Shown: one piece after another, positions 9,791 to 14,332 of the stretch | Position numbering within the stretch: the first letter of the stretch is position 1 | Layout of the letters: each line of letters begins with the position of its first letter | Assembly: GCA_024398055.1 (NCBI GenBank) | Contig: CP073749.1 | Span: 372,001 to 436,000, forward strand | Length of the DNA: 64,000 bases | Reading direction: 5' to 3' | Origin: a bacterium SCSIO 12741 | GTDB taxonomy: Bacteria; Bacteroidota; Bacteroidia; Flavobacteriales_G; Salibacteraceae | Notes under the pieces: generated by a model | What the model saw: the letters and a program-made list of their open reading frames with translations, nothing else | Databases searched by the model: none | Told to the model about the DNA's origin: nothing | Made by a program: the position numbers and the translations under genes

Positions 9791-12700
9791 TTAGGGAAAG
9801 TATACACGTTGATTAGAAAACTCACCTTGACGTCCAAGCATTCTAACGATATAAATACCGTGAAGACTGGAAGCATCAAAACTTTGAGTCACCGTATTCA
9901 ACTCCAACTTTTCTTGCATCACCACACGTCCATTCAAATCCAGAACAAACAGGTCGGCGAAAGTCTGATTCGCCTGCTCGTAGTTCACGGTCAAACGATG
10001 CTGAATAACGGCCACCCGGATAGCTTGCTCATCCTCTACATCATCCTGAACGGAGGAAACTACACCTGCAGAACGGGTTCCGGTAGAACAGTCGTCGATG
10101 TCAACCCATACAGAGTTTACTCCAGGTTCGTCGCCAGCATTGGCATACCATTGGTTTACCCATACATCACCATTGTGTACAACGGTATCGGCGTATCCAG
10201 TGGCGTAGATTACAGCGGCATCCCAAATGCGGTAGCCACATAACTTAGGCTCGGTAGAAGGATTACAGTAGAAATCAAATTTCCATCCTGTACTTACTCC
10301 AGGTGTATCGGTAGCTGCTAACCACCAGTCGTTGTGGTACACTTTGCCATCGTACTTCACATAGCTTCCGGCAGTGGCGTATACTTGAGGAACCCAGTTT
10401 GCAATGGTATCACAAGGAGAACCGGTGGTACTTGGCGCACTTACGCTAAAGCTTACGCTGGCGGTATCGGCCTTTCCAGTACTATCCGTAGCAATAGCAG
10501 TAAGGCTAAAGCTTCCGTAGGCTGCTGGAGTCCAACCGGCTGAATAACTGTTTCCAGAGGCCACAGCATTCAAGGTTTGCCCTCCAATCTGGAATTGCAC
10601 GGTAGCGAGATCACCGTCCGCATCGGTAGCAGTAGCTTGAAGATTAATGGACTGCAAACTGGCTTGTACCAAATCGGCACCGGCCAATGGGTAGCTGATG
10701 CCAACCACAGGTGCCTGGGAAGTGCTCACATTTTGAACGGTGAAGGTTACAACAGATGTACTACTTGCTCCATCGTTGTCGGTAGCTGTTACAGTTAAGG
10801 AGTAGTTTCCATACGCCGCTGGAGTCCAACTGGTGCTATATAGGCTACCTTGAGCTGACCCGGACAACGTTTGTCCATTGATCGCAAAATCCACAGAGGT
10901 TACCGCATCGTCATCGGTAACGGTTGCCACCAGGGTAATTGGGGCTAATGTAGCCGCAGTAATCACCGCTTGGTCCGCTGGAGAAACGCCACTGATAACT
11001 GGTGCCAGATTACCAGATGTTCCACAGTTCTGTACAAATTCCCAAACTTGGTTTACGCCAGGCTCTTCACCTGGATTCGCATACCATTTGTTTTTGTAAA
11101 TCTTGTTGTTGTGCGCTACTTGCTGATTAGGCGTTGGGTAAGCCAGGCTTGCATCCCAGGCAGCAATGCCCTCACATCCGGTAGAGGTAGACTCATCGAT
11201 AATGGTCACCTGAATACTGGCTGTAATAGAATCAGTTGCAGTGTAGGCAATAGCCTCTAAAGTATAAGTAGTAAAGGCACTTGGAGTCCAATCTACGGAA
11301 GCCGAGGTATAAGTCACTCCTTCCACGATGGTAGCCGTACTTAGGATCTCATTGTTAGGATCCATGAGGGTAATGGCTACAGGAACGGTGTCTCCTAAAG
11401 TGATGGCAATAGTACTGTTGTGTACCGGTGCCTGGAATGCGATTCCGGCTACATGGTTACACTCTTGGTAATCGATTTGGAAAGCGGGCATGTTGGCACA
11501 TCCCAACTCCAAAGGATTATCGGATCCGTCCAAGGCCATTCCTATACCAATAATGTCAGTATAGCGATCAAAGTGCGCAATACGGCCCAACACTTTTGCA
11601 TTTTCGGTTCCGCCGTTACACTCAATTCCACCGTTGATGATGTTCACAGTAGCTCCAAATCCCGGACGCAACCCACTCTGAATTTGAGCTGGGGTAGCAA
11701 CCCAATTACCTACCATTACGTCATGGCAAGATGGCTTAGGGTATTGCGGAGTCATCCAAAACCAAATGGCTGTTTGAAAGGCCAATACACCGTCAGAAGC
11801 AACCAAATCAGGATTGGACAGCAATACGTTTTTGTCTCCATACAGGAATTCACTCACTTGTCCGTAGTTGTAGTTCCAGCTCAACTGAATCGGTCCACGG
11901 CCGTGGTAAGACTTACCCGCAACAGCAGGATATTGGGCATTTCCGGCATCCACGTAACCAATGTTGTTGGTACCGGCATAACCTTGTTCCTCTTTGAAGT
12001 GAAGCCCCCAGGCATATTGTCCACCTGGTGCAGTAGGCCACCCGCCAGTAGTTTCCTGAGAAATGTTGGCCAAGAACGCCATCAAATCACGCTGCTTGGT
12101 TTCGAGAGAACCTGTGTTGGCAAAGTTTCCGTAGTCCACCACTTCGGTCATTATCTGAGCGGAATGCCCATCAAATCCAGCATCGTTGCGAATCACAGTA
12201 GTTACCCCAGTGGTTTTGTCCTTCCGGGTAATCTTGTACAAATTCGTAGCACATCTTCTTTCAAAAGTCACTTCAATATTGGCCATTTTACCCAAGGCTG
12301 AAATGAAGTTGTTGTAGCTGAAGAAGTCGTTTGTGATCACGTAGTTGTTGCCCACAAAACTTCCACCATGACGGTAAGGGAATAAACTATCCCACTGAGT
12401 AGCGGTAATCAAGGTTCCTGTTGGAGGAGTGGTCAATTGATTAACGCTAAAGGCTACGCTTTTCCGTAAAGTATCTCCTTTGGCATTGGCCGCTTCCACA
12501 GCCAGGGTGTAGTTTCCAAAAGCCGAAGGAACAAAGTCAAACGTATAATCGCTTCCCACTTGCTGAAAGCTCATGGCAGTATTGTTTACGGTAAATGCAG
12601 TGTATACGATACTTGAGCTGGTATCTTCGATGGACACAGCCATAGGAATGGTATCCAAGGCGGTTTGACTAATGACCTGACCATTGGCCGGGTTGTTAAT

Positions 12701-14281
12701 CACCACTTTCAAGTGAGATGCTGGTGGAGGGGTAATGGTTCCACCACCTAAAGTGTCTTTAGAAACAAATACACGGTTTAGTGCATTTACCAAAGGCGCT
12801 GAGGTACTTGGTGCATGAGGCAGTTTGTTGGAATAGGTTTGAGTAACCGTACCAGGAACCAAATCACCGAAGGCATGCCAGATGATTACACCACCAATAT
12901 TGTGGGTGTTCACATACTTGGCTTTTTCCTCAACGGATTGAACGTTGTCATAACTCAGAAAGTAGTTGCCCTTGGTTAGGTAAGGAACCTTGGCTTCATT
13001 ATCCCAGTGATAGGTCCAGCCATTGGCCGAATCGTTTTTGATGGCATAGTGTGTTGGAGTTCCATCAAAAGGTCCCCAATTGGTGTAATCGGCAGCCGTC
13101 ATCACCAATCCGTCAGGAGAGATGTTTTTAGACACTTTTACCGTTGGAGCATTCAACTGAGCACTTCCATTGGTGATTACACCACGCCCGTAAAAAGCAA
13201 CTCCCATGTTAATTTGACTTGGGTTTACGCCTTGAGATACGAGAAACTTAAAGGTACTGTCCCAAGACATTCCAGCTTCTTCCTCATTGGTGTAAGGATA
13301 CAACGGAGAATTGTGTCCGGCTTTGTTGCTCCACCCGCCATGCATGTCGTAAGTCATCATGTTGAAGTAATCCATGGTGGTGCTCAAGGCAGACCAGTTG
13401 AACCCGTTCAGTTTAACCGAGGAAGCATTAAATGCTGCCGTCAACAACTTGTTGGGGCCAATAGCAGCTCTGATTTCGGTCATCAAGGTTTGAAAGTTGG
13501 CGTAATCAGCGTTAGAACCGGTGAAGTTCATCCCACTGAATGCACCTGGAAACTCCCAGTCGATATCGATACCATCAAATCCCATGTTGATGAGCTTCTG
13601 GCAATCTTCTACAAACTTCTTTCTCTTGGCAGAATCAGCCGCCACATCAGGGAAGTGCTTAGACATACTCCATCCACCGATAGAGGCCATCAATTTCACG
13701 CCATTGTCGTGAGCCAGTTCCATTACTCCTTTGGCACCACCAGGCTTTGGCAATGACAAGGGGTAACTACCTGTTTCATTGGTCTGGGTATTAATCCACC
13801 CCGTTCCGTTCGGGTCACCTTTGTAGTGGTAGTCGCGGAATGCCCAGTAGTCAGCGTGTGTGGGTTGCTGATCCAGGTTTGTGGGCAAGTAGTGGATAAT
13901 CTGGATATCACCGTACAGCAACCAGTAGTCCCAGCTGGAGTAGGTATCGCTAAACAACAATTCCCCAGGCTGCTGGTCCACGCCCTGTTGGTGGATATTA
14001 GGATCCCGAAGGTCGCCACTATGCAAACTTCCGTCCACCGCTACTCCAAAGAAGGACCAGTTGAGCATGGTGTATTGGCTGTAATCTATGTTAAGTTGGT
14101 TGTAGAATCCTTTCGGCACTCCGTGGTTCGCTCCTTTCCAGGCATCCCACTGCGTGAAATAACCTATGACTTCCTTTTGGTGCTGATTCTTCGTGTATTG
14201 ATAGTTTGACGTTTGAGCACTTAACTGGGAAAATGCTAAAGTCAAAATCAACAAGAAGAGGTTTCTTGACCCCGTTGCCAT
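9791..14281 (-). CDS. Bimodular secreted chitinase (GH18 + GH19) with CBM5/12 domains and T9SS signal
   Basis: The protein is about 1496 residues long. From the ATG at 14281 it has a signal peptide (ATGSRNLFLLILTLAFSQLSAQ). A GH18 chitinase domain (about 36-485) has the catalytic motif DGIDIDWE (acid Glu near 243), the SIGGWS strand and the MMTYDMHG strand. An Ig-like linker (about 524-615) leads to a GH19 chitinase domain (about 624-918) with the catalytic Glu in ISQETTGGW (near 743) and the family signature SYHGRGPIQLSWNYNYG. Then come another Ig-like domain, a CBM5/12 chitin-binding domain (about 1036-1086), two Ig-like repeats (about 1093-1281), two more CBM5/12 domains (about 1289-1399; WVNQWYANAGDEPGV) and a T9SS type A sorting domain. 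GH18 retains and GH19 inverts configuration, so the modules attack chitin by different mechanisms. An upstream ATG at 14332 would add 17 residues. The gene stands alone between a terminator and a long leader region. Confidence 0.95.
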   Translation of the reverse strand: MATGSRNLFLLILTLAFSQLSAQTSNYQYTKNQHQKEVIGYFTQWDAWKGANHGVPKGFYNQLNIDYSQYTMLNWSFFGVAVDGSLHSGDLRDPNIHQQGVDQQPGELLFSDTYSSWDYWLLYGDIQIIHYLPTNLDQQPTHADYWAFRDYHYKGDPNGTGWINTQTNETGSYPLSLPKPGGAKGVMELAHDNGVKLMASIGGWSMSKHFPDVAADSAKRKKFVEDCQKLINMGFDGIDIDWEFPGAFSGMNFTGSNADYANFQTLMTEIRAAIGPNKLLTAAFNASSVKLNGFNWSALSTTMDYFNMMTYDMHGGWSNKAGHNSPLYPYTNEEEAGMSWDSTFKFLVSQGVNPSQINMGVAFYGRGVITNGSAQLNAPTVKVSKNISPDGLVMTAADYTNWGPFDGTPTHYAIKNDSANGWTYHWDNEAKVPYLTKGNYFLSYDNVQSVEEKAKYVNTHNIGGVIIWHAFGDLVPGTVTQTYSNKLPHAPSTSAPLVNALNRVFVSKDTLGGGTITPPPASHLKVVINNPANGQVISQTALDTIPMAVSIEDTSSSIVYTAFTVNNTAMSFQQVGSDYTFDFVPSAFGNYTLAVEAANAKGDTLRKSVAFSVNQLTTPPTGTLITATQWDSLFPYRHGGSFVGNNYVITNDFFSYNNFISALGKMANIEVTFERRCATNLYKITRKDKTTGVTTVIRNDAGFDGHSAQIMTEVVDYGNFANTGSLETKQRDLMAFLANISQETTGGWPTAPGGQYAWGLHFKEEQGYAGTNNIGYVDAGNAQYPAVAGKSYHGRGPIQLSWNYNYGQVSEFLYGDKNVLLSNPDLVASDGVLAFQTAIWFWMTPQYPKPSCHDVMVGNWVATPAQIQSGLRPGFGATVNIINGGIECNGGTENAKVLGRIAHFDRYTDIIGIGMALDGSDNPLELGCANMPAFQIDYQECNHVAGIAFQAPVHNSTIAITLGDTVPVAITLMDPNNEILSTATIVEGVTYTSASVDWTPSAFTTYTLEAIAYTATDSITASIQVTIIDESTSTGCEGIAAWDASLAYPTPNQQVAHNNKIYKNKWYANPGEEPGVNQVWEFVQNCGTSGNLAPVISGVSPADQAVITAATLAPITLVATVTDDDAVTSVDFAINGQTLSGSAQGSLYSTSWTPAAYGNYSLTVTATDNDGASSTSVVTFTVQNVSTSQAPVVGISYPLAGADLVQASLQSINLQATATDADGDLATVQFQIGGQTLNAVASGNSYSAGWTPAAYGSFSLTAIATDSTGKADTASVSFSVSAPSTTGSPCDTIANWVPQVYATAGSYVKYDGKVYHNDWWLAATDTPGVSTGWKFDFYCNPSTEPKLCGYRIWDAAVIYATGYADTVVHNGDVWVNQWYANAGDEPGVNSVWVDIDDCSTGTRSAGVVSSVQDDVEDEQAIRVAVIQHRLTVNYEQANQTFADLFVLDLNGRVVMQEKLELNTVTQSFDASSLHGIYIVRMLGRQGEFSNQRVYFP

Positions 14282-14332
14282 TTCATTTAAGAAAGGCCAG
14301 GATGCTTTTTTTTCAAGTGTGTTACCTATCAT

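Follow-up and report, generated by a model that had tools for sequence, protein, structure and literature searches.

The analysed stretch of 64,000 nucleotides from the bacterium SCSIO 12741, referred to as the window, carries a single open frame for a protein with a GH18 and a GH19 chitinase module (9791-14332, minus strand), which comprises 1513 amino acids counted from the first ATG. Position 14281, given as the end of the gene in the preliminary description of this DNA, corresponds to codon 18, which is an ATG as well. This codon is the likely start, the putative signal peptide begins there, and it coincides in position with the N-termini of L005 and L023, two fused relatives. The parts of the protein are as follows, with residues counted from the first ATG.

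9791..14332, minus strand: whole open frame, 1513 amino acids; likely start at codon 18 (14281)
14216..14281, minus strand: signal peptide, residues 18-39, read by eye (MATGSRNLFLLILTLAFSQLSA); its position matches the N-termini of L005 and L023
12863..14170, minus strand: GH18 catalytic module, residues 55-490 (PF00704, 221.7 bits, cut-off 29.6)
13697..14050, minus strand: long segment between GH18 barrel strands 2 and 3, residues 95-212 (secondary structure of the model)
12959..13183, minus strand: alpha+beta insertion (chitinase insertion domain) between GH18 strands 7 and 8, residues 384-458 approximately (secondary structure of the model)
12410..12823, minus strand: GH18-GH19 linker containing a single Ig-like domain, residues 504-641 (Pfam, comparison of relatives)
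11480..12409, minus strand: GH19 catalytic module, residues 642-951 (PF00182 at 730-931, 210.3 bits, cut-off 25.5)
12125..12283, minus strand: beta-sheet insert of about 50 residues in GH19, residues 684-736 (strands in the model; 48-56 residues in relatives)
11024..11176, minus strand: CBM5/12-like module 1, residues 1053-1103 (PF02839, E 1.3e-4, 22.4 bits, cut-off 26.2)
10790..11002, minus strand: Big_7 Ig-like domain, residues 1111-1181 (Pfam); a second Ig-like domain follows at about 1209-1301
10265..10414, minus strand: CBM5/12-like module 2, residues 1307-1356 (PF14600, E 0.0032, 17.8 bits, cut-off 27)
10088..10240, minus strand: CBM5/12-like module 3, residues 1365-1415 (no Pfam match; 35 bits with the profile of relatives)
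9815..9997, minus strand: T9SS sorting tail (type A, probable), residues 1446-1506 (PF18962 reaches 24.0 bits on the isolated tail; cut-off 27)

The fusion of both chitinase families in one polypeptide, as claimed in the preliminary description, was confirmed by the single frame and by the profile search, in which PF00704 (E 2.4e-65) and PF00182 (E 4.6e-62) each scored far above the curated cut-off. The motifs quoted there, DGIDIDWE (residue 253), ISQETTGGW (residue 757) and GRGPIQLSWNYNYG (residue 811), occur once each. Both active sites appear intact by sequence, as had been said of the look of the two modules, the catalytic residues being kept in either of them, and Pfam found three Big_7 stretches in the whole protein in agreement with the proposed Ig-like linkers. 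What the computation shows directly is the single frame, the two modules with their catalytic residues preserved and their folds as predicted, as well as the insertion domain and the CBM-like repeats.

The GH18 module combines the TIM-barrel profile with the DxxDxDxE motif (D253, D256, D258 and E260). These residues together with Y328, D329 and W485 are invariant in an alignment of 25 sequences (A2) taken from the 58 rows of the GH18 tree. The AlphaFold model of the module (pLDDT 87.7) found its best structural match in the PDB in the insect group I chitinase 3wkz (Z 39.9, 336 residues, 1.9 A) and matched Bacillus ChiA1 (1itx) with Z 37.3, while the top PDB match by sequence was ChiW of Paenibacillus FPU-7 (5gzt, 5gzu). 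Strands and a helix lie in the model between the strands E328-332 and E435-438 (module numbering), as expected for a chitinase insertion domain, which is also indicated by the resemblance in structure to 1itx and other GH18 enzymes that bear this domain. Much of the long segment at residues 95-212 lies ahead of the point at which the main sequence alignments to PDB chains begin.

In the GH19 module the residues E760, E782 and S818, which we take to correspond to barley E67, E89 and S120 (the two catalytic glutamates and the serine positioning the water), are invariant in an alignment of 34 sequences (A1) from the 59 rows of the GH19 tree. The catalytic residues of all four fused proteins are kept in both module alignments. 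The active-site assignments proposed for GH18 and GH19 draw in part on general knowledge of the families and on alignments to solved enzymes. According to its AlphaFold model (pLDDT 92.0) the GH19 module resembles the plant chitinases 7v91 and 3cql (Z 34.0, 234 of 310 residues, 1.5-1.6 A) and 2baa (Z 32.6). An assignment to the endolysin branch of GH19 was rejected, since the phage endolysins 9ms7 and 8p8e reached only Z 14.9 and Z 12.1 compared with Z 34 for the plant chitinases.

The module thus has the catalytic residues and the overall fold in common with the plant class I/II GH19 chitinases (3cql, 2baa), but differs from them in having an additional beta insert (about 50 residues) and in its location within a multi-module bacterial protein. 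In 30 of the 34 aligned modules an insert of 48-56 residues separates an early helix from the conserved F in the DYGNF region, whereas in the remaining ones (the untrimmed frames of L078, L081, L091 and L100) the helix leads directly to this F. The insert was not seen in the solved GH19 chains aligned here, and five of the sequence alignments to solved chains begin at its end. No known fold for the insert was seen in the PDB match lists of the whole GH19 module, and a narrow literature search, which says little, found no paper on GH19 inserts. Many of the inserts carry a stretch similar to FERRxGTNxYxxTRxDKxTG; their sequence is variable and FERRxGTN does not occur in all 30.

The three CBM5/12 domains of the preliminary description can be upheld as CBM-like repeats. 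With a profile derived from 104 different repeats in relatives, which had been selected by a pattern of our own making, modules 1, 2 and 3 scored 62, 42 and 35 bits, respectively, compared with 5.2 bits for the best of 200 shuffles of the protein. However, all three remain below the Pfam cut-offs and no CBM5/12 module was listed in the whole-protein Pfam scan. Module 1 matches the solved domain 6z40 (cpb33A, E 2.2e-4) and the chitinase C domain 2d49 weakly, and the CBM5/12 modules of the fused relatives L005, L023 and L057 lie above the Pfam cut-off.

The type IX sorting signal holds up less well than described. The tail of the protein scores below the Pfam cut-off of 27 bits both alone and in the whole-protein scan (19.3 bits) and below the NCBIfam cut-off as well (TIGR04183, 15.2 bits, cut-off 23). 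A profile of the tails of 92 relatives did not separate it from shuffled sequence (5.0 bits versus 4.8 bits for the best shuffle). On the other hand, the host genome encodes SprA in full length (TIGR04189, 2489 bits). Each of the fused relatives L005, L023 and L057 has a T9SS tail match, which exceeds the cut-off only in L057. Among the ten frames of relatives that were scanned, the tails of L057, L069, L025, both L034 frames and the GH18 frame of L048 scored above 27 bits, whereas those of L005 (24.5), L023 (23.0), L054 (26.6) and the GH19 frame of L048 (26.4) scored below. Taking together the sub-threshold tail, the SprA of the host and the above-threshold tails of some relatives, export of the protein by the T9SS is likely.

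The host genome is a single contig of 5.1 Mb with a completeness of 95.9%. Its only GH19 match is this protein; of its two GH18 matches, the other one lacks the canonical motif and reads QGLMLDFE at this position by eye. At E 0.001 no match to GH20, SusD (PF07980) or LPMO10 was detected in the genome at this completeness. Two GH3 matches were found, one of them with the NagZ-like stretch KHFPGHG. Elsewhere GH20 matches are present in G001 (one, 69.9 bits), a genome of another genus of the same family, in Sediminicola (five) and in Aquimarina aquimarini (two). Of the ten neighbouring genes scanned in the window, three have no match, and the others include those for a TonB receptor (with no SusD), a PAS/histidine kinase, a TIG protein, an acetyltransferase and a lipid A acyltransferase. 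Hence, a chitin utilisation locus of the Flavobacterium johnsoniae ChiA type was not found, with GH20 and SusD PF07980 lacking and the ten neighbours being unrelated. Due to the lack of GH20, SusD PF07980 and LPMO10 matches, the standard chitin utilisation locus does not appear to be there to use the products.

The absence of the classic locus keeps an antagonistic role of the enzyme open. Its targets would then be chitinous walls, be they of fungi, algae or small animals, and feeding on chitin would be secondary to antagonism or predation. Such a role would suit the only GH19 match and the only GH18 match with the canonical motif in a genome devoid of matches to the accessory functions named above, placed among genes that form no chitin locus, and GH19 enzymes are introduced as commonly known antifungal agents in the relevant passage of PMC10535946. 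However, the two GH3 proteins, including the one with the KHFPGHG stretch, could cleave chitobiose, importers other than SusC/D exist, and at a completeness of 95.9% a gene may be missing from the assembly. Altogether, we regard a mainly antagonistic role as rather unlikely.

The same architecture was newly found in G001, Sediminicola luteus and A. aquimarini. The fused relatives (L005, L023 and L057) share with the window protein the order GH18, Ig, GH19, Ig and three CBM5-like repeats, and this order is kept at about 70% amino acid identity in three genomes. A scan of 84,980 species genomes, which may leave out near kin of the window, with six peptide patterns, which miss distant relatives, yielded 62 loci, two of which encode the fusion in a single frame (L023 of S. 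luteus and L057 of A. aquimarini Aq135). At a further locus (L022, Flavobacteriales UBA6049) the linker and GH19 are encoded; its contig starts inside the protein, so that a GH18 half would lie outside the contig. With the window's own genome included, the fusion was detected in 2 of 35 genomes of its family and 2 of 42 genomes of its order, in either case plus the contig-cut copy (G011), and in 2 of 395 genomes of a class sample in which at most two candidates were scored per genome. Based on these counts the fusion looks rare and patchy in its distribution. Duplicate rows (L001, L002, L004, L006, L021, L084 and L085) were left out. Near relatives of the GH18 module were also observed outside the Bacteroidota, in MAGs of Lentisphaerota and Bacillota (L042:5334-9983, L074 and L046, the module of the latter being split over two frames), possibly as a result of lateral transfer or mis-binning.

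Trees were computed for GH18 (58 rows; hits below 300 bits or 280 model positions dropped) and GH19 (59 rows; hits below 240 bits or 190 positions dropped). In the GH18 tree one clade (support 100/99) unites the window with G001 and Sediminicola, and L057 is placed on a long branch outside all its near relatives. In the GH19 tree the same three modules and the contig-cut L022 form a clade (100/99), which adjoins stand-alone GH19 proteins of Chitinophaga (98/85), while L057 is found among stand-alone GH19 proteins of Aquimarina and Tenacibaculum (99/94). The groups for the subsequent topology tests were named after the trees had been seen. A single clade of all fused rows is compatible with the GH18 data (AU p 0.131). 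By GH19 a single origin of all fusions is rejected (AU p 1.3e-5 with L022 and L069 in the clade); the value of 1.8e-60 obtained without L022 and L069 is inflated, as it forces those close relatives out of the clade. Two fusions, with the one in Aquimarina apparently independent by GH19, are the better reading. One old fusion followed by repeated loss of GH18 is possible, the more so because of the GH18 result and because one such loss has been seen.

This loss is found in Aquimarina muelleri DSM 19832, where L069:7285-10104 lacks about 1,990 bases compared with L057:7863-12416 while the frame is kept. The GH19 protein of L069 retains the signal peptide and the first GH18 residues (...SKQVI), which are followed directly by EEHPLVSRAQW, the stretch ahead of GH19. 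It reads as the product of a fused gene that has lost GH18 in frame. Apart from L069, no GH18 remnants ahead of GH19 were recognised by eye in the other stand-alone proteins. Since the A. muelleri derivative does without GH18, the partnership of both modules seems not to be indispensable in every lineage. A. muelleri DSM 19832, which we assume to be the type strain like V1SW 49T, has two GH19 frames (L051 and L069). The pertinent entry of PMC10535946 on A. muelleri V1SW 49T lists GH18 (2) and LPMO (1) and no GH19.

Three stand-alone GH19 proteins (L024, L033 and L043) have three CBM5-like repeats behind GH19 in nearly the same spacing as the window protein; relative to the latter, one gap is longer in L036 and one is shorter in the fused L057. 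This shared spacing suggests that GH18 was added in front, i.e. that a GH18 module was probably joined N-terminally to an existing GH19 protein. A secreted GH19-Ig-CBM protein would accordingly have gained the GH18 module, and the fused gene would since have descended, and probably also moved between lineages, as a whole. The base composition of the gene showed no sharply foreign half, the GC content of its parts ranging from 0.46 to 0.49 compared with 0.447 for the window.

Sediminicola groups with G001 before the window does in both trees (GH18 98/85; GH19 99/82, L022 included). The order of the window is represented by 42 genomes in three families, and UBA6049 and Sediminicola are Flavobacteriales according to their NCBI titles. 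Since the window's order seems too small to hold the Flavobacteriaceae, we infer that the gene has probably been transferred as a whole from one lineage to another. Conserved synteny was not found: the Pfam-scanned neighbours differ between the window, G001 and Sediminicola, and when the window's first 30 kb were compared by tblastx with the loci of the two others, all of the matches listed fell within the chitinase gene.

In 23 loci, which were fetched by resemblance to the query and do not represent a random sample, GH18 and GH19 are encoded in separate frames, the nearest same-strand pair lying within 250 bases, measured from frame to frame, in 19 of them. The GH18 neighbour is a near relative of the window GH18 (>750 bits) in six of these 19 close pairs and a distant GH18-like frame (40-51 bits with our profile) in 13; the frame of L048 is the one of the 13 confirmed by Pfam as GH18, together with CBM5/12. 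Separate neighbouring frames of this kind in many Aquimarina and Tenacibaculum loci, as well as the in-frame loss in A. muelleri, would fit a neutral accretion, in which the modules act independently and their fusion has the sole effect that half as many secretion signals and CBM sets suffice. A neutral origin is nevertheless quite improbable in view of the fused order being kept at about 70% identity in three genomes and of a second lineage having the same fused order.

Our preferred reading, to which we assign a probability of roughly 0.6, is that of a secreted two-engine chitinase whose GH18 and GH19 modules cooperate on chitin while being held there by CBM-like modules after probable export by the T9SS. 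GH18 enzymes act with retention and GH19 enzymes with inversion of configuration. We infer the endo and exo roles, the direction of action, the secretion route and the cooperation as follows. The signal peptide would take the protein out of the cytoplasm and the type IX system probably out of the cell, where the three CBM5/12-like modules would hold it on chitin. The GH19 module with its plant-class-I-like open cleft would cut the chains internally with inversion. The GH18 module with its chitinase insertion domain would start at the new ends and run along the chain, releasing mainly chitobiose with retention.

By analogy with ChiA of F. johnsoniae, the two modules may plausibly act together on crystalline chitin. 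According to the ChiA passages of PMC5127042 and PMC7426924, its N-terminal GH18 domain (ChiA_N, with a large insertion domain) is exo-acting and probably processive, while ChiA_C is an endo-acting GH18 in which the insertion domain is absent or much smaller. The same passages report that full-length ChiA at 1 uM converted >80% of beta-chitin in 24 h, whereas the mixed domains, each at 5 uM, reached 35%. ChiA is a secreted T9SS chitinase of very large size, as the window protein probably is too, and both have a binding middle part and two catalytic modules, to which different roles are ascribed. Both begin with a GH18 module that has an insertion, located between strands 7 and 8 in the window protein and forming a large insertion domain in ChiA; the likeness of the window GH18 to ChiA_N is one of this shared domain. 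In contrast, the second module of ChiA is a GH18, whereas that of the window protein is a GH19, which by the same analogy could take the endo role. The middle part of ChiA binds chitin although no known CBM is predicted in it, while the window protein has CBM5/12-like modules. Furthermore, ChiA is encoded in a chitin utilisation locus with a GH20 and SusC/D-like pairs, whereas the window gene has no such locus. ChiW of Paenibacillus FPU-7 (5gzt, 5gzu) also unites two chitinase modules in one surface-expressed chain, but both of them are GH18.

It would go further to assume that the Bacteroidota built a CBM-bearing chain of an exo-acting GH18 and an endo-acting GH19 at least twice, that this chain is the sole canonical chitinase here and that the GH19 insert helps on solid chitin. 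If so, one gene would supply the entire attack on chitin. We consider this extended proposal doubtful.

Proteins combining GH18 and GH19 have appeared in at least four earlier papers, so that the novelty implied by the preliminary description was overstated. Table 1 of PMC4928363 counts two among 11,953 genomes, and single cases appear in the respective passages of PMC6626019 and PMC10576748, the latter a dual protein in Endozoicomonadaceae. Two diatom proteins (TwChi10/22) are called unique fusions in the section concerned of PMC12028343, and a tree of 90 sequences, Aquimarina included, is marked for GH18 and/or GH19 domains in PMC7883442. The proteins of the former four sources have the same two families on one chain as the window protein; they are given there as counts or domain annotations, and the likeness is one of family content. 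No biochemical study of a GH18-GH19 fusion was found in the open-licence literature, most subscription journals being outside the scope of the search. GH18-GH19 fusions seem rare and little studied. As such fusions were already mentioned, the protein represents an unusual form of the known multi-engine chitinases: it is a rare, conserved variant of a two-engine secreted chitinase and not a new category.

While known two-engine chitinases such as F. johnsoniae ChiA combine two GH18 modules, the second engine is here an unrelated, inverting GH19. Natural forms include a single chain with both modules, separate neighbouring genes and an in-frame deletion of GH18, which makes the value of covalent linkage in the breakdown of crystalline polysaccharides testable with nature's own constructs. 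The two-engine idea has precedents; what is useful is the range of forms, fused, neighbouring and reduced, that occur in nature.

Another mixed-activity chain, in which GH19 is located far from the N-terminus, as in other Aquimarina loci, was observed at L034:13890-18167, where a GH5-CBM6-CBM5/12-GH19 protein is encoded directly downstream of a double-GH18 protein.
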